In this document: positions 2,710 through 11,932 of the stretch, in pieces
How the letters are laid out: every line of letters starts with the position of its first letter
Numbering within the stretch: position 1 is the stretch's first letter
Assembly (NCBI GenBank): GCA_009704065.1
Contig: WLEX01000010.1
Span: 1-14,434 of the forward strand
DNA from: Actinomycetota bacterium
GTDB taxonomy: Bacteria > Actinomycetota > Acidimicrobiia > Acidimicrobiales > Ilumatobacteraceae
DNA: 14,434 bases
Direction: 5' to 3'
The notes under the pieces: model-generated
The model's database searches: none
What the model was told of the DNA's origin: nothing
The model's input: the letters and a program-made list of their open reading frames with translations, nothing else
Position numbers and translations under genes: made by a program

Positions 2710-3245
2710 AGAACGGAATTACCCTCGAGCTTGATAACGGTCTCTTCACCGTCGTTGAATTTCAACATGTGAAGCCAGGCAAGGGTGGGGCTTTTGTTCG
2801 CACAAAGTTGCGCAACCTGAAAAATGGAAACCTTCTCGAAAAAACATTTAACGCTGGTATCCGCGTAGAACAGGCCATTCTCGACAAGCGCGACATGCAA
2901 TTTCTCTACAAAGATGGTGATGATTTTGTGTTCATGGACACCGAGTCCTACGACCAAATGACCGTTACTCCTGTAGCGCTCGGTGATGCAGCCAATTATC
3001 TGGTGGAACAAGCAATGGCGATTATCGCGTATCACAATGGTGAAATCGTGACGGTTGAAATTCCTGCTTCGGCCGAGTTGATTGTTGCCGATACTGAACC
3101 TGGCCTGCAGGGAGACCGAGTGTCGGGTGCCCGTAAGCCGGCCACATTGGAAACAGGAAAAGTTATTCAAGTGCCGTTGTTCGTCAATGTTGGCGACAAG
3201 GTCAAAGTCGACACTCGCACCGGCGATTACGTGACACGCGTCTAA
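2682..3245 (+). CDS. efp: Translation elongation factor P
   Basis: EF-P binds ribosomes stalled at polyproline stretches and promotes peptide-bond formation. The 187 residues from the ATG at 2682 match the family length and its three beta-barrel layout (KOW-like domain about 1-65, then two OB domains). The tip of domain I reads [10 protein letters not shown], with the functional lysine at position 34. The C-terminal part has [19 protein letters not shown] and [17 protein letters not shown], both family signatures. I see no epmA, epmB or ymfI-type modification gene nearby, consistent with the unmodified lysine reported for actinobacterial EF-P. The loop lacks the second proline of the PGKGP form described in that group. 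The gene overlaps the preceding peptidase gene by 28 bases, and its TAA shares one base with the nusB ATG. Confidence 0.96.
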
Positions 3246-3670
3246 TGGCACGTGACCCAGAGTCGTTCCGCATGAGCGACGAACGGACAGATGCCCGTGA
3301 ACAAGCGGTTATTTTCCTCTACGAATCAGAGCAACGTGGAATCTCGCCACTTGAACTACTGGCCGACCGTGGCGTTGCCTCTGCAGATCTCACAAGTGAG
3401 CTGCTCAATGGCATCGAAGCGGTACGTGCCGACCTGGATGCTGAGATCGTTACTTTCGCTAAGGGCTGGGCTCTCGATCGCATGCCAGCACTCGACCGGG
3501 CCATCTTGCGACTAGCTATTTATGAGCTCCGATCTCGTCCCGATGTGCCAGTGGCAGTTGTCATCGACGAAGCAGTCGAGCTAGCAAAGCGTTTCTCCAC
3601 CGATGATTCGGGCCGGTTTGTCAATGGTGTGCTGGCGGCGGTAGCGAAGGAAGCTCGTCCCACCGCATAG
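3245..3670 (+). CDS. nusB: Transcription antitermination factor NusB
   Basis: NusB pairs with NusE (ribosomal protein S10) on boxA RNA and supports antitermination of rRNA operons. The 141-residue all-helical protein has the expected REQAVIFLYESEQRG helix near residues 18-32. WALDRMPALDRAILRLAIYE lies at 75-94, and the C-terminal VIDEAVELAKRFS (106-118) is followed by GRFVNGVLAAVAK, all hallmarks of the family. The ATG at 3245 overlaps the efp stop by one base. A second in-frame ATG at 3272 would remove nine poorly conserved residues and is possible, since neither start has a strong ribosome-binding site. This is the last gene of the aroB-nusB unit. The pyr promoter begins only a few bases beyond its stop, and I see no clear intrinsic terminator between them, so some read-through into the pyr leader is likely. 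Confidence 0.92.
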   Translation: MARDPESFRMSDERTDAREQAVIFLYESEQRGISPLELLADRGVASADLTSELLNGIEAVRADLDAEIVTFAKGWALDRMPALDRAILRLAIYELRSRPDVPVAVVIDEAVELAKRFSTDDSGRFVNGVLAAVAKEARPTA

Positions 3671-3675
3671 TCGCA

Positions 3676-3706
3676 CTGGCGTGGCACCGATCTGTGTGTC
3701 TATAAT
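3676..3706 (+). promoter_or_regulatory. Promoter of the pyr operon
   Basis: TATAAT at 3701-3706 is a perfect -10 box. The best -35 candidates are weak (CTGGCG at 3676-3681 with a 19-base spacer, or TGGCGT one base later with 18), so the -10 box carries most of the evidence. Transcription should start near 3711-3713, which puts the PyrR-binding hairpin at the very 5' end of the mRNA, as in mycobacteria. The promoter sits six bases after the nusB stop. Confidence 0.6.
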
Positions 3707-3714
3707 GAGAACGA

Positions 3715-3745
3715 CCGTAAAACGAGTCCTGTGAGGCTCGAACGG
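3715..3745 (+). promoter_or_regulatory. PyrR-binding RNA hairpin (pyr leader)
   Basis: The RNA carries AGUCCUGUGAGGCU (3725-3738), a full match to the known PyrR-binding consensus. It folds as a lower stem CCGU/ACGG (3715-3718 with 3742-3745), an internal loop with an A-run on the 5' side (3719-3722), and an upper stem CGAGUC/GGCUCG with one U-G pair. The hexaloop is CUGUGA (3729-3734), which fits the CNGNGA form. PyrR loaded with UMP is known to bind such hairpins and lower pyr expression. The 3' strand of the lower stem runs directly into the leader ribosome-binding site, so binding would block ribosome entry, as shown for Mycobacterium smegmatis. Confidence 0.9.
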
Positions 3746-3750
3746 AAGGA
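3744..3750 (+). promoter_or_regulatory. Ribosome-binding site of the pyr leader ORF
   Basis: GGAAGGA ends four bases before the ATG at 3755. Its first two Gs also belong to the lower stem of the PyrR hairpin, so PyrR binding and 30S binding should compete. The element is perfectly complementary to bases 3822-3830. Confidence 0.75.
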
Positions 3751-3754
3751 AAAT

Positions 3755-3838
3755 ATGACTTCATCATCTTTCATGTGTGCACGCCCCTCGCGAGGGGCGT
3801 TTTTCATGCCACAACTTCGAGTTTCCTTCCCACAATGA
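3755..3838 (+). CDS. Putative 27-residue pyr leader peptide
   Basis: An ATG at 3755 with a good ribosome-binding site opens a 27-codon frame ending at TGA 3836-3838. The stop overlaps the pyrR ATG at 3835 in an ATGA junction. The peptide starts MTSSSFMCARPSRGAFF; I recognise no domain, signal peptide or membrane segment. Its frame runs through the whole GC-rich terminator hairpin (codons 10-15) and the T-run after it. The peptide itself is probably not the product that matters. The likely role is that a translating ribosome keeps the hairpin open and delivers ribosomes to pyrR, which has no ribosome-binding site of its own. Evidence is start, spacing, coupling and context; expression is inferred. 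Confidence 0.65.
   Translation: MTSSSFMCARPSRGAFFMPQLRVSFPQ
3782..3804 (+). terminator. Intrinsic terminator/attenuator inside the pyr leader ORF
   Basis: CGCCCCTCGCGAGGGGCG (3782-3799) is a perfect 18-base inverted repeat, giving a seven-pair GC-rich stem with a CGCG loop. Five Ts follow at once (3800-3804). This is standard intrinsic terminator form. It lies about 70-90 bases after the predicted transcription start and before pyrR, so it would act as an attenuator. The T-run is short, so termination may be partial. I find no separate antiterminator that pairs strongly with the stem, which suggests that ribosomes decide the outcome. Confidence 0.7.
3822..3830 (+). promoter_or_regulatory. 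Anti-Shine-Dalgarno segment before pyrR
   Basis: TTTCCTTCC is the exact reverse complement of GGAAGGAAA at 3744-3752, which contains the leader ribosome-binding site. Pairing would close a long loop around the terminator hairpin and hide that site in the full-length mRNA. The run sits five bases before the pyrR start codon, where a ribosome-binding site would normally be. The function is inferred. Confidence 0.4.
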
Positions 3839-4380
3839 CCACGGTGTCGTCGCAACGCTCCGAGCTACTCGGCGAGGCAGATATCGAAAGAGCAATTACT
3901 CGTATTGCTCATGAAATCATCGAACGCAATGCCGACTTGTCGGTTGTTGTCATTATCGGTATGCAAACTGGTGGAACGTGGATTGCACAACGCCTACGTG
4001 ATGCTGTGAGCCGCATAGCGCCAGGAAACGACCTTTTGTTAGGGGCCATCGACATCTCGATGTATCGAGATGACTTCAGTCTGCGCCCTCGAGTACTGAC
4101 TGCACCCACCGATATTACGTTTGACCTCACTGAAAAAACCGTGGTGTTGGTCGACGATGTGCTGTTTACTGGTCGAACGGTACGAGCAGCCTTAGAGGCT
4201 CTCAATGATCATGGGCGACCACGTGCAGTGCAGTTGGCAGTAATGGTCGATCGTGGGCATCGTGAACTGCCCATTCGTCCCGATTATGTCGGCAAAAACA
4301 TCCCCACTCACTTCAGTGATGAAGTGAGTGTTGGACCTGGTGGTGTCGCAGTGATGGGCCTCGAAAAGAGCCAATCATGA
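3835..4380 (+). CDS. pyrR: PyrR, pyr mRNA-binding regulator / uracil phosphoribosyltransferase
   Basis: PyrR senses UMP and binds pyr leader RNA to lower expression of the operon. Many members also make UMP from uracil and PRPP. The 181 residues fit the family. The N-terminal half has ERAITRIAHEIIERN and a GMQTGG loop. The PRPP-binding motif VVLVDDVLFTGRT spans 103-115, and LAVMVDRGHRELPIRPDYVGKNIPT follows, as in known PyrR. The ATG at 3835 is chosen because it overlaps the leader ORF stop and gives the usual N-terminus. A GTG at 3775 in the same frame would translate through the terminator hairpin. There is no ribosome-binding site before 3835, so translation most likely depends on the leader ORF. 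A match to the PyrR RNA consensus lies directly upstream, so autoregulation is very likely. The stop overlaps pyrB as ATGA. Confidence 0.95.
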   Translation: MTTVSSQRSELLGEADIERAITRIAHEIIERNADLSVVVIIGMQTGGTWIAQRLRDAVSRIAPGNDLLLGAIDISMYRDDFSLRPRVLTAPTDITFDLTEKTVVLVDDVLFTGRTVRAALEALNDHGRPRAVQLAVMVDRGHRELPIRPDYVGKNIPTHFSDEVSVGPGGVAVMGLEKSQS

Positions 4381-5324
4381 AACATCTCTTGTCAACACAT
4401 GACTTGTCGGTCGAACAGATGATCTCATTGCTGGAAACTGCTGACTACATGTCGGAGATCAATACACGGTCGATTTCGAAGGTGCCTGCACTGCGCGGGA
4501 AAACTGTTGCGAGTGTATTTTTCGAAGATTCGACGCGTACACGCTTGAGCTTCGAAACAGCGGCGAAGCGTTTGTCTGCCGATGTTCTCACTTTCTCGGC
4601 TGCGTCTTCCAGTGTGAACAAGGGCGAGAGTCTGCGCGACACGATTGAGACCCTGTCAGCTATGGGGGTCGACGCATTTGTTGTTCGACACAAGTCGAGC
4701 GGAGCACCTCAGCAAATCACGCAATGGACCAATGCGTCAGTATTGAACGCTGGGGATGGTTGGCATCAGCACCCAACACAAGCTTTGCTCGATACGTACA
4801 CCATCACACGATCCTTTGGCCAGCTCGACTCTATGAAGGGTCGCACGATTGCCATCGTAGGAGACATCAAACATTCTCGTGTCGCGCGAAGCGACATCGA
4901 CATGTTCACGCGCTTAGGTGCCGAAGTCATTTTGGTAGCACCAAGTGCGTTGCTGCCAAGTCACATTGAAAACTGGGGAGTTACTACTGCGTCATCTATT
5001 GACGAGGTAATCAATTCGGTCGATGTTTTGTACATGTTGCGAATGCAAAGGGAACGTATCAGCGCATCGAATATGCCGAGCCTTCGTGAGTACAGCAGCC
5101 ACTACGCGTTAACCGTTGAACGAGCAGCAAGGTTGTCACCTCATGCTTTAGTGATGCACCCCGGTCCCATTAATCGAGGTATCGAGATGATGGTCGATCC
5201 ATCAGATTTACCAGGATCACGTATTTTGCAACAGGTAACAAATGGAATAGCCGTGCGCATGGCTGTTCTCTTCACGTTGCTTGGCGGAGATCTCACTGCA
5301 ACTGCAACAGGTGGAACGGTATGA
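4377..5324 (+). CDS. pyrB: Aspartate carbamoyltransferase, catalytic chain
   Basis: PyrB joins carbamoyl phosphate and L-aspartate to make N-carbamoyl-L-aspartate, the committed pyrimidine step. The 315-residue length is normal for the catalytic chain. The carbamoyl-phosphate loop FFEDSTRTRLSFE starts at residue 48 (S52-T-R-T-R56), with SVNKGESLRDT following as the mobile loop that carries the active-site lysine. HPTQALLDTYTI starts at His132. In the aspartate domain, MLRMQRER and HPGPINRG (His261 onward) are present. No pyrI regulatory subunit is nearby, so control is probably at the level of PyrR rather than allosteric by CTP. Starts by a 4-base overlap with pyrR and ends by a 4-base overlap with pyrC. 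Confidence 0.97.
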   Translation: MKHLLSTHDLSVEQMISLLETADYMSEINTRSISKVPALRGKTVASVFFEDSTRTRLSFETAAKRLSADVLTFSAASSSVNKGESLRDTIETLSAMGVDAFVVRHKSSGAPQQITQWTNASVLNAGDGWHQHPTQALLDTYTITRSFGQLDSMKGRTIAIVGDIKHSRVARSDIDMFTRLGAEVILVAPSALLPSHIENWGVTTASSIDEVINSVDVLYMLRMQRERISASNMPSLREYSSHYALTVERAARLSPHALVMHPGPINRGIEMMVDPSDLPGSRILQQVTNGIAVRMAVLFTLLGGDLTATATGGTV

Positions 5325-6607
5325 GTTCAGCAACACAATCAATAGTCATTCGTGGCGCTCAGATCGTGAATCCAGATGCAGTGTTTCTTGCCGATGTTCG
5401 TATCGTTAATGGAATCATTGAGGCGGTTGGTGAAAACCTACAAGGAGATCTCGTTCTCGATGGAACGGGTTGCTACATCTCGTCTGGTTTTGTTGATCTT
5501 CATACGCACCTGCGTGAGCCGGGCAAAGAAGAGGCAGAAACTATCGAATCGGGTTCCCGCGCTGCAGCCCTCGGTGGGTATACCGCCGTTGTAGCTATGC
5601 CGAATACTGATCCAGCCCAAGACAATGTGGCTACGGTTCTCTTTGTTCGAGAGCGCGGCATTGAGGCTGGTCTATGTGAAGTTGTGCCATCTGGCTGCAT
5701 CACAGTGGGAAGACTCGGGCGCGAACTAGTGCCGTACGACTCGCTATCTCGTGTCGGAGTCACACTCTTCACCGATGATGGCAATGGAGTGCAAGATGCG
5801 CATGTCATGCAACGTGCACTTACTGCGGCCGCGCGTCTTGGTGTCACGTTGGCGCAACACTGCGAGGTCTCGGCGCTCACCGAAGGTGCAGTGATGCACG
5901 ATGGAGCATGCTGCTCCTCAATGGGTGTACCTGGCTGGCCATCAGAAGCCGAAGAGCAAATGGTGCGACGAGATATCGCATTGGTGCGACTCACTGGCGC
6001 AAAGATGCACTTTTTGCACCTGTCTACAGCTGGAAGTGTTCAGTTGGTGCGAGACGCAAAGGCCGAGGGTTTACCTGTTACTGCTGAAGTGACACCGCAT
6101 CATCTTTCTCTTCTCGATGAAATGCTTTTGGGATTTGATCCCATCTTTAAGGTGAATCCACCATTGCGCACTGCTGAAGATATTGCAGAACTAAAGCGCG
6201 GACTAGCCGACGGCACCATCGATGCAGTTGCAACCGATCATGCGCCACATGCTGGTCACACAAAAGAACAACCACTCGACACAGCGCCCCCCGGAATGTT
6301 GGGATTAGAAACAGCCCTTGGAGTGGTCAATACTGCACTCACTCTCACCGCACAGCAAATTGCGCAGGTCATGTCGTGGGCACCGGCTCGCATCGCATCG
6401 CTTCCACAGCAAGGGCGTCCTATCGCGGTGGGCGAACCAGCAAATATCTCGGTCTGGAACACGACCGATGTGTGGACTGTGTCGAGACACGATCTAGCAA
6501 GCCGTAGCAACAATACGCCGTATCACGGCATGGAACTTCGTGGTCGCGTGCGGCACACGATCTATAACGGCCAAGTGGTCGTACAAGAAGGGAAGGCACT
6601 CAAGTGA
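5321..6607 (+). CDS. pyrC: Dihydroorotase (class I, zinc amidohydrolase)
   Basis: PyrC closes carbamoyl-aspartate to dihydroorotate, the third pyrimidine step. The 428-residue length and motifs fit the class I bacterial form, not the shorter E. coli type. Metal ligands are all visible: His61 and His63 in DLHTHLREPG, Asp153 in FTDDGNG as the bridging acid, His180 in QHCEV, His233 in FLHLSTAGS and Asp306 in ATDHAPH. PPGMLGLETAL follows as expected. Class I enzymes can need the aspartate carbamoyltransferase for full activity in some species; pyrB is directly upstream and overlapping. A short ribosome-binding stretch AGGTGG lies before the start. Mycobacteria have a small extra gene between pyrC and carA; here pyrC overlaps carA directly. 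Confidence 0.97.
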   Translation: MSSATQSIVIRGAQIVNPDAVFLADVRIVNGIIEAVGENLQGDLVLDGTGCYISSGFVDLHTHLREPGKEEAETIESGSRAAALGGYTAVVAMPNTDPAQDNVATVLFVRERGIEAGLCEVVPSGCITVGRLGRELVPYDSLSRVGVTLFTDDGNGVQDAHVMQRALTAAARLGVTLAQHCEVSALTEGAVMHDGACCSSMGVPGWPSEAEEQMVRRDIALVRLTGAKMHFLHLSTAGSVQLVRDAKAEGLPVTAEVTPHHLSLLDEMLLGFDPIFKVNPPLRTAEDIAELKRGLADGTIDAVATDHAPHAGHTKEQPLDTAPPGMLGLETALGVVNTALTLTAQQIAQVMSWAPARIASLPQQGRPIAVGEPANISVWNTTDVWTVSRHDLASRSNNTPYHGMELRGRVRHTIYNGQVVVQEGKALK

Positions 6608-7692
6608 GTTCCGGAATTACAGAGATTGCACTAGTACTCGAAGATGGTTCAGTCTTCGAAGGAGAAGCAATTGGGCATGTGCCCGACAATGGAATTGCTG
6701 CCGGTGAGGTTGTGTTCCATACCGCTATGACTGGTTATCAGGAAGTGTTCACTGATCCGTCATACGCCGGGCAAATTATTACGTTCACTACATCTCATAT
6801 CGGTAACTACGGAGTCACACCCATCGATTCTGAATCACGAGGAACCTATGCCCGTGGTGTCATCATGCGTGATATGGCGCGTCGTCGCAGCAATTGGCGA
6901 AGCGACAATGATCTCGATGCAATGTTGAAAGCACAGAAATTGCCAGGTGTTGCGGGTCTCGACACTCGTCGCTTAACTCGTTTGCTTCGTGACTCTGGGT
7001 CATTGCGTGGCGCATTCGGAACTGCTGATCAAGCGTCGCTTCTCACAGCGGCCCGAAACGAAAAGGGAACCTCTGGTATCGATTTAGTTTCGCAAGTCAC
7101 AACAGACAAGCCCTATGTCGTTGGTGACGGAAAGTTCCGTGTGGTGGCCTACGACTTCGGTATCAAGACAACGATCCTTCGTTGCTTGTCAGATATGGCA
7201 ACCGTCACGGTGGTACCGGCAAGCACTACCGCAGAAGAAGTTCTTGCCATGTCGCCATCTGGTGTGTTCTTGTCTAACGGACCAGGCGACCCAGAGATGG
7301 TGGGTGGAGCAACTGCGGCAATCAAAGCAATCGTTGAAGCAGGTACACCCACCTTTGGAATTTGCCTAGGCCACCAGTTGCTGTCACGAGCATTCGGTGG
7401 ACACACGTTTAAGTTGCCCTTTGGTCATCATGGTGCAAATCATCCTGTGCGCCACATTGCAACGGGCACTGTCGAAATCACCAGCCAGAACCACAACTTC
7501 TGTGTTGATCCCGATTCGCTGTCGGGAGTTGCCGACATTACGCATATCAACTTGAACGACAACACAAACGAAGGGATGCGTCTGCGTGATCTACGCGCCT
7601 TCAGTGTTCAGTATCACCCTGAAGCTGGCCCTGGTCCGCATGACAGCCGCTACTTGTTTGGACAATTCGCAGAACTTATGGAGAAGAACTAA
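6604..7692 (+). CDS. carA: Carbamoyl-phosphate synthase, small (glutaminase) subunit
   Basis: CarA hydrolyses glutamine and passes ammonia through a tunnel to CarB. The protein is 362 residues. Its N-terminal domain holds [15 protein letters not shown] and [20 protein letters not shown]. The C-terminal class I glutamine amidotransferase domain has [22 protein letters not shown] and the nucleophile elbow [10 protein letters not shown] with Cys254. His338 and Glu340 in YHPEAGPGP complete the triad. The start is a GTG that overlaps the pyrC stop (GTGA), supported by a GGAAGG-like ribosome-binding stretch just upstream. Product carbamoyl phosphate feeds both pyrimidine and arginine synthesis, but its place in this operon ties it to PyrR control. 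Its TAA shares one base with the carB ATG. Confidence 0.97.
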
Positions 7693-10600
7693 TGCCTCGT
7701 CGTAATGACATCCACACCATCTTGATTATTGGATCAGGACCCATCGTTATTGGTCAGGCGTGTGAATTCGATTATTCAGGAACACAAGCATGTCGAGTGT
7801 TGAAAGAAGAGGGATACCGCGTCATTCTTGCGAACTCCAACCCTGCAACAATCATGACCGACCCCGATTTTGCAGATCGCACATATATAGAGCCACTCAC
7901 TCCTGAAATTCTGGCCAAAATTATCGAAAGAGAAAAACCAGACGCTGTATTGCCAACTCTTGGTGGACAAACCGGTCTCAACCTCGCGATGGCACTATTT
8001 GAAAAAGGGCTCGTAGGAGTTCCTGGGACCCCTGAACTTATTGGTGCTAATGCAGAAGCGATTGCTACAGCAGAAGATCGCGACAAGTTCAAGCAAGCCA
8101 TGATTGAAATTGGTCTGAAGGTTCCAAAGAGTGGCATTGCCCACAACATGGATGAAGCACATTCGGTACTTGCCGAAATCGGACTACCAGTCATCATCCG
8201 CCCTGCCTACATCTTGGGTGGCAAGGGCACGGGCATCGCAAACACCATGGAAGAGTTCGCGAAGTTGGCTTCGAATGGTCTTGATGCAAGTCCGATTCGT
8301 GAGATTCTCGTGGAGACATCCATCGTTGGTTGGAAAGAATACGAACTTGAAGTGATGCGTGACCACGCCGATAACTGCGTCATTATCTGCAGTATCGAAA
8401 ACTTCGATCCGATGGGAGTGCATACAGGTGACTCCATCACTGTGGCTCCTGCGCAAACACTGTCAGATGTCGAGTACCAAGAAATGCGTGATGCGGCGTT
8501 TGCGTGCATCCGACGGGTTGGTGTGGAAACTGGTGGCTCTAACGTTCAATTTGCGTTAAACCCAGCAAATGGTGATCTTGTTGTTATCGAGATGAATCCT
8601 CGTGTATCGCGTTCATCGGCCTTGGCGTCGAAAGCAACTGGATTTCCCATTGCAAAAATTGCAGCCAAGTTGGCAGTGGGGTACACCCTCGATGAAATTC
8701 CTAACGACATCACAAAGATGACACCAGCAAGCTTTGAACCCACGATCGATTATGTGGTTACAAAGATTCCACGGTGGGCCTTTGAAAAACTTCCTGGTAC
8801 GTCAGGAATTCTGGGAACGCAGATGCAAAGTGTTGGCGAAGCAATGGCCATTGGTCGTACCTTTCCCGAAAGTTTGCAAAAGGGTTTGCGCTCTCTCGAA
8901 CAAGGACGTCTCGGACTTAATTGTGATCCGGGTGAAAGTCTGTACGACGCCCTCGATGACGAAGCTTTATTGAAGATGGCTGGCATCGCTACACCAGAAC
9001 GAATTTTCCAAGTGGGCGAAGCTCTCCACCGTGGCATCACAGTCGACCGGGTTCATGATGCGACAAAGATCGATTATTGGTTCCTTGATCAGATGCAGAT
9101 CATCATCGATGAGCGACATTCATTACAAACAAAGAAATTGTCAACTTTGTCGAAACATGAAATGCGTCGTGCAAAACGTCTCGGGTTTTCTGATTCTCAG
9201 TTGGCCTATGTGTTCGGTGTCGACGAACTTGAGGTTCGTGCACAACGTGAATCTCTCGGCGTCATACCTACATACAAAACTGTCGATACTTGCAGTGCTG
9301 AATTCGCAGCGCTTACTCCGTACCACTACTCAACGTACGAAGACGAAAATGAGGTGCGCCCATCAGATAGGCCTCGCGTCATCATCTTGGGATCTGGTCC
9401 GAACAGAATTGGACAAGGCATCGAATTCGATTATTGCTGTGTTCATGCGAGTTTCGCCCTACGTGCGGCTGGATTCGAGACTGTAATGGTGAACTGCAAC
9501 CCAGAAACTGTGTCGACCGACTACGACACGTCTGATCGCTTGTACTTCGAGCCACTCACACGTGAAGACGTGCTTAATGTGATTGCGGCTGAGACATTTG
9601 CATCGGGTGGTGTTGCTCCCAAAGTCATTGTGAGTCTCGGTGGACAAACTCCGCTGAAACTGTCTGGTCTTATTGATCCGGCTTTGATTGCTGGCACATC
9701 ACCACACTCCATCGACTTGGCAGAAGATCGTGAGAAGTGGAATCAACTGTGTAACAGTTTGTCGATACCGCAGCCTCCCGGAGGTACTGCGGTGACAGTT
9801 CCTGAAGCAAGCAAGATTGCAGCCGAAGTGGGGTTTCCGGTTCTGGTTCGCCCCAGTTATGTTCTCGGCGGGCGAGCAATGCAAATCGTTCACGATCAAG
9901 CAGCACTTGAACGTGCGATGGATCAGATGGCCCACGATGGGAGTCTGGGTAAAGAAGGCGGATTGTCTTCTGAGCGACCAGTACTTATCGATCGCTTTCT
10001 AGAAGACGCCACTGAAGTCGATGTCGATGCCATTCGCGACCATACAGGCGAAGTCCTGATTGGTGGAGTGATGGAACATGTGGAAGAAGCTGGTGTTCAC
10101 TCCGGTGACTCAGCGTGCGCCATCCCGCCACAAACTCTCCCAGCATGGGTCGTTGAAGTGATTAGTGCCTACACAACATCGATCGCTAACGCACTCGATG
10201 TTCGAGGCTTAATTAACGTTCAGTTCGCGGTGCTCGGAACCACTGTGTATGTCATCGAGGCCAACCCTCGTGCGTCGCGCACAGTGCCGTTCGTCGCTAA
10301 AGCGACAGGAGTACCTCTTGCAAAGGTTGCGAGCCGCGTCATGCTCGGCGCAACACTTGAGGAACTGCGAGTAGAGGGGTTGCTCACGCCTCCTGTTACT
10401 GGTGGCCACGTTTCAGTAAAGGAAGCGGTGCTGCCGTTTAATCGATTCCCCGACGTCGACACGGCACTTGGACCAGAAATGCGTTCAACCGGTGAAGTCA
10501 TGGGAATCGATCGAACCTTCGGGCGAGCATTTGTGAAATCTCAAACTGCTGCTGGCACGGTGTTGCCAACGTCAGGGACAGTGTTCTTGTCGTTGAATGA

Positions 10601-10985
10601 CGGCGACAAACCTGCGGGATTGGTTGTAGCTAAGCGACTACGTGAACTCGGACTCGGAATTGCCGCTACCACCGGTACTGCTGCCTATCTTGCAAAATTC
10701 GGGCTACCCGTTGACCGTGTGGTCGGAAAGCTCTCAGAGATTGCTGGATCCTCGATGGACAATGCAGCCGAATTGGTAGCTCAAGGTGAAATCACTTTTG
10801 TAGTGAACACGCCTCATGGGCGTGGGTCACGTGAGGATGGCGAGGCCATTCGTAAAGCGGCGAACTCAAACGGTGTGTCATCGGTGACCACGGTGGAAGC
10901 GGCTTTGGCTGCCGTAAACGGTTTGTGGGAACAACGATCAAGTGAAGTTGAGGTACGTTCACTGCAGGAGTATCACGGACGATGA
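7692..10985 (+). CDS. carB: Carbamoyl-phosphate synthase, large subunit
   Basis: CarB makes carbamoyl phosphate from bicarbonate, ammonia from CarA and two ATP. The 1097 residues show the normal duplicated plan. The first ATP-grasp half begins with [20 protein letters not shown] near residue 11, and an oligomerisation region follows at about 400-555. The second half begins with [17 protein letters not shown] near 565. A C-terminal MGS-like regulatory domain starts at about 960 ([14 protein letters not shown], then [13 protein letters not shown]). Both ATP-binding halves keep their [12 protein letters not shown] or [12 protein letters not shown] loops and [18 protein letters not shown] or [18 protein letters not shown] metal sites, so both steps look intact. 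The GGAG at 7680-7683 may help initiation. It ends in an ATGA overlap with pyrD. Confidence 0.98.
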
Positions 10986-11932
10986 TTCACATGCGGCGCG
11001 GCGCAAGTGCTCTCGAAGCACTGGGAGAAGTAGAGGTAGGTGGAGTCGTATTGGCTAACCCTTTTATGACTGCGTCGGGCACAAGCGGGCATGATGTTGA
11101 ACTTGGTAGGTATATGCCGCTTCACCGATTGGGTGCAGTAGTTGTAAAAAGTTTGTTCCACGAATTGTGGGAGGGGAACCCTGCTCCGCGAGTTCATGTT
11201 GCCCAGAGCGGCATGATGAATGCAGTTGGTCTTCAGGGACCAGGTGTTGTGTCATGGTGCGACACTTCTTTGCCATTGTTAGAACAACAACAAGTCACAG
11301 TGGTTGCAAGTATCTGGGGACGTAGTGTGCGCGAGTATGTGTTGGCTGCCGAACAATTGCAAGCAGTGGGTAATCGTGTTGCGGCAATCGAAGTCAACCT
11401 GTCGTGCCCGAACCTTGAAGGTCGAAGTGGAATCATTGCGCACGACCCATCGCTCGCCGGAGAAATCGTGGCGGCTGTCTCGGCTATTGCGTCTGTTCCT
11501 GTGTGGGCAAAGCTCAGTGCTAACACCGATCGCATCGTGCAAGTGGCAACAACGGTTATAGATGCAGGTGCATCTTCATTGACTCTCATCAACACCATGC
11601 TGGGAATGCAGATTGATATTGGAAAGCGTGGCTACACACTGGGAAATGGTGGCGGGGGATTATCGGGTCCAGCCATTCATCCCATAGCGGTGCGTGCCGT
11701 TCACGATGTGCGAAGCGCACTTCCCGAAATTTCTATTGTCGGTGTTGGTGGAATTGCCTCGGGTGCCGATGCAGTAGAGATGATGATGGCCGGAGCGAAT
11801 GCGGTGCAGGTAGGAACAGCGTCTTTTGCCCGACCCGACGCCACGTGGAGAATTGCATGTGATGCAGCGAATATTGCTCGCCAGCAAGGCGCTTCAACAT
11901 GGAGTGACATTGTGAATTCTGTCCACCGGTAA
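10982..11932 (+). CDS. pyrD: Dihydroorotate dehydrogenase, class 1B catalytic subunit type
   Basis: PyrD oxidises dihydroorotate to orotate using FMN, the fourth pyrimidine step. The 316 residues fit the soluble class 1 enzymes. [19 protein letters not shown] and [10 protein letters not shown] line the flavin and substrate site. Cys142 in VNLSCPN is the class 1 catalytic base, where membrane-bound class 2 enzymes have serine. [10 protein letters not shown] and [17 protein letters not shown] favour class 1B over the fumarate-using 1A form. Class 1B normally works with PyrK, an FAD and iron-sulphur subunit that passes electrons to NAD+, yet no pyrK lies between carB and pyrD (4-base overlap) or after it. 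AGGAG at 10966-10970 is a possible ribosome-binding site. It is the last gene of the pyr unit, and no clear terminator follows it. Confidence 0.92.

Follow-up and report, generated by a model that had tools for sequence, protein, structure and literature searches.

PyrR is a well-studied RNA-binding attenuation protein, acting through antitermination in the Firmicutes and through a translational block in mycobacteria. The pyr leader found in the actinobacterial DNA analyzed here (the window, a stretch of 14,434 nt) raises the question of how PyrR might control an operon when its binding hairpin stands just before an open reading frame (ORF) that runs through an intrinsic terminator and ends on pyrR itself. 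From its sequence and that of its relatives, the element is probably a PyrR-controlled, ribosome-gated transcription attenuator.

Anatomy of the pyr leader and its operon

The leader and its surroundings comprise the following features:

3245-3670: nusB, directly upstream of the pyr leader
3701-3706, + strand: -10 box TATAAT of the pyr promoter (from the sequence; similar boxes in congeners)
3715-3745, + strand: PyrR-binding hairpin, core GTCCTGTGAGG (RF00515 match; two pairs changed on both sides)
3744-3750, + strand: Shine-Dalgarno sequence GGAAGGA of the leader ORF (duplex energy -5.7 kcal/mol)
3755-3838, + strand: leader ORF of 27 codons, MTSSSFMCARPSRGAFFMPQLRVSFPQ (from the sequence; conserved in the genus)
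3781-3804, + strand: intrinsic terminator, all within the leader ORF (stem 3781-3800, T tract 3800-3804)
3835-3838, + strand: ATGA, in which the leader stop TGA and the pyrR ATG overlap by 4 nt
3835-4380, + strand: pyrR (closest PDB sequences are PyrR proteins; Pfam PF00156)
4377-11932, + strand: pyrB-pyrC-carA-carB-pyrD, the remainder of the operon

All parts named in a preliminary description of this DNA, namely the promoter, hairpin, Shine-Dalgarno sequence, 27-codon ORF, terminator and stop codon overlapping pyrR, were found where it had placed them. Only the -10 box of the promoter is convincing, as a sigma-70 scan of the window returned no site meeting the scan rule; TATAGT or TACAGT boxes at equal spacing are visible by eye in congeners. 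Judging from the -10 box, the transcript would start near the 5′ base of the PyrR hairpin. This hairpin has a lower stem, CCGT/ACGG, an upper stem, CGAG/CTCG, and a core, AGTCCTGTGAGGCT, that fits the PyrR-binding consensus ARUCCAGAGAGGYU, as given in PMC7430163, at 12 of 14 positions; the hairpin previously described as perfect is thus present, the adjective being slightly too strong. With at most one mismatch allowed, the core pattern occurs once in the window compared to 0.14 occurrences expected by chance. The Rfam model RF00515 matches positions 3711-3807, end to end over the hairpin and the terminator, with 42.7 bits (E 7.9e-5), and a default Rfam scan showed nothing because this score lies below the curated cut-off, the gathering score being 54.

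The PyrR site adjoins the first ribosome-binding site of the operon, the Shine-Dalgarno sequence and the lower stem of the hairpin having only 2 nt in common. The terminator, with an energy of -14.1 to -14.7 kcal/mol, begins about 27 nt after the leader AUG. When 3706-3838 is folded alone, the minimum-energy structure contains the terminator and lacks the PyrR hairpin, its stability being equaled or exceeded by 14 of 200 shuffles (z -1.71). A terminator belonging to the upstream gene was ruled out, as the stem lies beyond the -10 box and is kept where the upstream gene differs (by eye).

By its sequence, the protein encoded at 3835-4380 is a true PyrR; its RGHRELPIR stretch is common to PDB chain 1a3c_A, from B. 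subtilis. The leader, pyrR, pyrB, pyrC, carA, carB and pyrD are joined by six successive stop/start overlaps of 4 or 1 nt (3835-11932), carB being identified from its length and position rather than from a domain scan. nusB also stands directly 5′ of the pyr leader in another genus of the same family (L030, by eye), and many congeners have other sequence upstream of the leader, which seems to travel with the operon.

Proposed mechanism and conservation within the genus

The best-supported reading of this sequence is that PyrR gates the ribosome and the ribosome gates the terminator. With UMP or UTP plentiful, PyrR would occupy the hairpin and, because the base of the hairpin adjoins the leader Shine-Dalgarno sequence, bar loading of the 30S subunit; the leader RNA, left without a ribosome, would fold the terminator at 3781-3804 and stop RNA polymerase before pyrR. 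With pyrimidines low, PyrR would be off the hairpin and a ribosome could start at 3755, move about four or more codons into the terminator, hold its stem open, end at the ATGA and re-initiate on pyrR, the first gene of the overlapping chain that leads to pyrD. Binding of PyrR with UMP, exclusion of the 30S subunit, termination in vivo and re-initiation are steps that we infer from the anatomy. Only 49 nt lie between the leader AUG and the end of the T tract, and the ribosome must therefore load very soon after the Shine-Dalgarno sequence emerges; the short distance from this sequence to the terminator calls for fast ribosome loading or for a putative polymerase pause.

Conservation was examined in relatives, 58 of 61 genomes having a pyrR match. 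In the genus of the window, upstream sequence was usable at 28 loci, and at 27 of these the contig included the hairpin; L025, with 1 nt upstream, was left out and L010, with 72 nt upstream, was not scorable for the hairpin. An ORF led by a Shine-Dalgarno sequence, its stop overlapping pyrR by 4 or 1 nt, was present in all 27 assessable loci of the genus, compared to 4.1% for the leader-ORF/pyrR overlap in shuffled and frame-shifted control sequence, and two more loci found by the hairpin pattern (L257 and L259) have the same layout by eye. When a terminator inside the ORF was also required, 26/27 loci passed this full architecture test as opposed to 19/1080 dinucleotide shuffles, the one failure (L029) having a poor T tract. 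The architecture observed in the window is therefore beyond chance, and the alignment of relatives that the preliminary description had called for finds its hairpin, leader ORF and terminator conserved together in the genus.

In the alignment, the hairpin and Shine-Dalgarno sequence are nearly invariant, and indels in the leader preserve the reading frame both 5′ and 3′ of the terminator, the ORF measuring 78, 81 or 84 nt in the genus and 96 nt in L030, from another genus. The terminator is in register in 23 rows and almost unchanged there: five of its seven pairs are intact in all 23, the outer pair is intact in 21 (lost in L021 and L022), and the loop-closing pair is kept in 19, broken in four and compensated in L020 and L023. 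L026-L028 and L030 have well-formed terminator stems of unrelated sequence. A raw covariation count gave 5 of 17 pairs changed on both sides, and 0 of 500 shuffles scored as high; two of the three such pairs in the terminator come only from out-of-register rows, so the count is inflated in the terminator, where covariation is slight, and the two pairs changed on both sides in the PyrR hairpin stand. RNAalifold, applied to the full alignment, chose a small alternative helix in place of the terminator because L026-L030 are unaligned in that region. The mechanism put forward earlier therefore gains from the joint conservation of hairpin, ORF and terminator and from the frame-keeping indels, and the proposed test of the stem is less decisive, with unrelated stems in four loci and one pair compensated in two rows on one side, and the same pair broken in four rows and little variation on the other.

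A strict 31-base hairpin pattern, which would miss more divergent extra sites, occurs as one site in each of 26/32 genomes of the genus. Among the six without it, G020, G021 and G027 have a more divergent hairpin, G005 is cut by a contig end, and G016 and G031 have neither the strict pattern nor a pyrR match. G031 is 97% complete, so that one species may have lost PyrR control, unless its assembly has a gap there.

The features conserved in the leader ORF are its Shine-Dalgarno sequence, start, frame and stop position. Outside the terminator, the peptide is under no significant purifying selection (35/112 changes synonymous, 27% expected, p = 0.18), so that a prediction of selection on the peptide itself failed, and no amino-acid run common to the 28 leader peptides was seen by eye. 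Openness of the frame is weak as evidence, the +1 frame being open in 13/28 leaders and the +2 frame in 21/28. This pattern fits a role for the act of translation and not for its product. A freshly initiated ribosome covers roughly 15 nt downstream, and since the AUG lies about 27 nt from the stem, the ribosome must elongate a few codons to invade it, which fits the need for an open frame.

The leading alternative, which is unlikely, is translational repression only, as in M. smegmatis, where PyrR would block the first ribosome-binding site, pyrR would be silenced by coupling and the GC-rich hairpin would add little. The layout for occluding the Shine-Dalgarno sequence is identical, and starts led by such a sequence run straight into pyrR with no terminator in 9/14 loci from other genera of the family and in 10/40 loci from other families of the phylum. 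The Shine-Dalgarno sequence of pyrR itself is also weak (above -3 kcal/mol) in 12/27 loci of the genus, the window included (-2.5 kcal/mol); coupling alone could thus repress, and the leader probably also feeds ribosomes to pyrR. Against this reading, the terminator and T tract are kept in all but one of the genus loci, six of the seven stem pairs each hold in 21 or more of the 23 in-register rows, and unrelated stems replace the terminator in L026-L028 and L030.

Firmicutes-type attenuation, in which an antiterminator overlapping the PyrR hairpin would compete with the terminator and the leader ORF would be incidental, is very improbable. RF00515 does match hairpin plus terminator, and the upstream leader could pair with the terminator arm in a duplex of -7.7 kcal/mol (genus median -8.0), but this is about half as strong as in a comparison set of named, mainly Firmicutes loci (median -14.7 in 22/23 loci, L125 left out; genus vs set p = 3e-7). 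This duplex test gave no separation of Deinococcota from Firmicutes (p = 0.20). The gain from pairing the 5′ arm of the terminator upstream is 0.0 kcal/mol in the window, and its median is 0.6 in the genus (25 loci) as opposed to 4.3 in the 23 loci of the set; measured against the shuffles of each locus, the median z is -0.5 and 0.4, respectively, so that neither group stands out in a test of limited power. An antiterminator was rejected on the zero gain and the weak duplex, and a Firmicutes-type switch would leave the ORF and its 4- or 1-nt overlap in every assessable locus unexplained. The earlier remark that no antiterminator is evident in the window thus holds within the limited power of this test; like the anatomy and its conservation, the absence of any evident antiterminator across the genus can be read directly from the sequences.

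Sensing of UTP as in pyrBI, or amino-acid attenuation, with U-rich pausing or codon stalling setting termination and PyrR acting separately, is extremely unlikely: an ORF through a terminator recalls E. coli pyrBI, and the median U content of the stretch from AUG to terminator is 33% over 25 genus loci and 36% over 11 phylum loci, but U-richness is not conserved with the architecture because the median is only 8% over 21 loci of the order and likewise over 7 of Deinococcota, by which UTP pausing was rejected as a conserved principle, and amino-acid attenuation was rejected on the lack of both a shared run and detectable selection in the leader peptides.

Other lineages and a fused form

Outside the genus, the comparison covered other genera of the family (14/15 genomes used, G036 being cut by a contig end), other families of the order (28/36 genomes listed for the order, with further order genomes among the 61 set aside), 39 loci from the rest of the class, 40 families of the phylum with one locus apiece, and named loci returned by a search with PyrR of T. 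thermophilus. Only 1/14 loci from other genera of the family passed the architecture test, and L030 has no terminator by the architecture rule and has one by a looser rule. L038-L049, from these genera, mostly show a PyrR hairpin, a Shine-Dalgarno sequence and a direct pyrR start, with no terminator. Related genera thus seem to differ in their type of PyrR control.

As raw counts with no shuffle baseline, 16/39 class loci (10 fused, 6 separate) and 6/40 phylum loci (5 separate, 1 fused) passed; in the class, 12/39 loci led straight into pyrR with no terminator, alongside the 10/40 given above for the phylum. All seven loci from Thermus, Meiothermus, a Thermaceae MAG and a Truepera MAG passed, compared to 7/280 shuffles, L119 doing so only via an internal ATG, its leader ending about 25 nt inside pyrR by eye. 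Three Chloroflexota loci have leaders that are led by a Shine-Dalgarno sequence and end at pyrR, one of which passed with a terminator, and 5/29 hairpin-bearing loci of the named comparison set also satisfied the architecture rule. With strict filters, RF00515 matched in 0/198 genomes of the class at its gathering cut-off and in 7/198 at E 1e-3, as compared to a pyrR-like match in 186/198, the weak matches possibly belonging to other phosphoribosyltransferases. Most of this lineage escapes the Rfam model.

In the order's other families, the leader and pyrR form one continuous reading frame, here called the fused form. The start codon lies exactly 99 nt before the R-I-A-H-E motif in 27/28 loci, giving PyrR an N-terminal extension such as VAERERRLTPPYGGVFVAR, and 19/27 hairpin-bearing loci passed the test for the fused architecture compared to 8/1080 shuffles. 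The terminator stem falls within the translated extension in 17/27, since L069 and L071 pass with a stem outside it; L054 and L058 fail the rule as another start was picked, and both are fused with a terminator by eye. No stem was found in L064, L072 and L074, though much of the extension remains. Across L051-L077 the extension is conserved (such as VAERERR..TPPYGGVFVAR), its codons making up the terminator, and codons 3-7 of pyrR form a conserved Glu/Arg-rich stretch, often ERERR, just 5′ of the terminator. It is conceivable that a ribosome slowed at this stretch would cover the stem, which would link arginine supply to carAB expression.

Variation in pyrR codons 2-7 of the fused form falls mostly at third positions, with a synonymous excess of p = 1.6e-4 to 2.3e-7 over five random pairings; this region is therefore translated. 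The Pro-Pro...Gly-Gly peptide itself favors a stem, as an average of 46% of synonymous recodings give a terminator. The observed stems exceed most recodings in stability, with single p values of 0.025 to 0.57 and a combined p of 8.6e-7 over the 19 loci with a stem, a statistic that ignores kinship. These values lend the fused-form stems moderate support.

Judging from the fused form, the conserved start of a protein-coding sequence may house an intrinsic terminator that the Rfam cut-off misses. We know of no description of this form, and a literature search, with the main PyrR papers outside its reach, returned no account of it; it seems to be new and the more novel part of the finding. The wider picture, for which the case is evenly balanced, would be that PyrR control outside the Firmicutes widely takes the form of ribosome-gated attenuation, that in other families of this order the first ~20 codons of pyrR serve as protein, terminator and gate at once, the gene carrying its own attenuator in its coding sequence, and that the separate, fused and terminator-less forms in one order make up a natural series of switch types. 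These variants suggest that the sequence downstream of the hairpin sets whether translation, termination or both come under its control.

Comparison with known systems

In E. coli pyrBI, the leader ORF extends across the terminator, which is blocked by the ribosome, UTP being sensed via polymerase pausing with no PyrR involved. The window shares with this system the ORF through the terminator and differs in having PyrR. In M. smegmatis, Fields and Switzer reportedly described in 2007 translational repression by PyrR in a pyr leader without a terminator. The PyrR site stands beside the first ribosome-binding site of the operon there as it does in the window; unlike the M. smegmatis leader, the window has a terminator inside a separate leader ORF.

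According to the accessible text of PMC7430163, the B. subtilis pyr attenuators consist of a PyrR-binding loop, an antiterminator with an anti-antiterminator pairing, and an intrinsic terminator. The window shares the PyrR-binding loop and the downstream terminator, both of which are spanned by RF00515, whereas the antiterminator/anti-antiterminator pairing of B. subtilis is not evident in it, and its translated leader is no part of the B. subtilis model in that text (PMC7430163). At M. tuberculosis ppe2, a B12 riboswitch gates a translated uORF, and the passing on of ribosomes by re-initiation over an AUGA overlap after this switch-controlled uORF has been shown experimentally, as far as the accessible portion of PMC11260477 relates. 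A ligand-controlled element gating a translated leader with an AUGA overlap is thus common to ppe2 and the window, but the gate at ppe2 is a riboswitch and not a protein, and the same portion describes no intrinsic terminator inside the leader (PMC11260477).

The fetched Thermus loci share with the window the hairpin, a Shine-Dalgarno sequence on its 3′ flank and a leader ORF, of 28-33 codons, that runs through the terminator, and their leaders stop within the beginning of pyrR. This overlap is exactly 4 nt in the window, compared to 11 nt in L118 and L120 and ~25 nt in L119; the lower stem of the hairpin reads CCGT/ACGG in the window as opposed to CCTTT/AAAGG in Thermus, the phyla being different. 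For Thermus strain ZO5, whose own sequence is not among these loci, Van de Casteele et al. are reported to have proposed in 1997 a form of PyrR attenuation in which a translating ribosome stands in for the antiterminator. Like our reading of the window, this reported model has a PyrR site, proposes no antiterminator and lets the translating ribosome prevent the terminator. The preliminary claim of a third, undescribed mode of PyrR control is not supported, in view of this reported proposal and of the same layout in the fetched Thermus loci. A literature search found no account of the Thermus model or of this layout in Actinomycetota, which proves little as the main PyrR papers lay outside its reach.

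On the reported ZO5 model and on the Thermus sequences, the window may best be filed as an actinobacterial example of the Thermus-type PyrR attenuator. This would be a third PyrR arrangement, reportedly proposed so far for Thermus only, and the present data support its conservation in an actinobacterial genus and its presence elsewhere. Given that reported proposal, it is not a wholly new mode; what is new is the conserved actinobacterial example and the fused form, and with the variants side by side in one order, the Thermus idea becomes directly testable.
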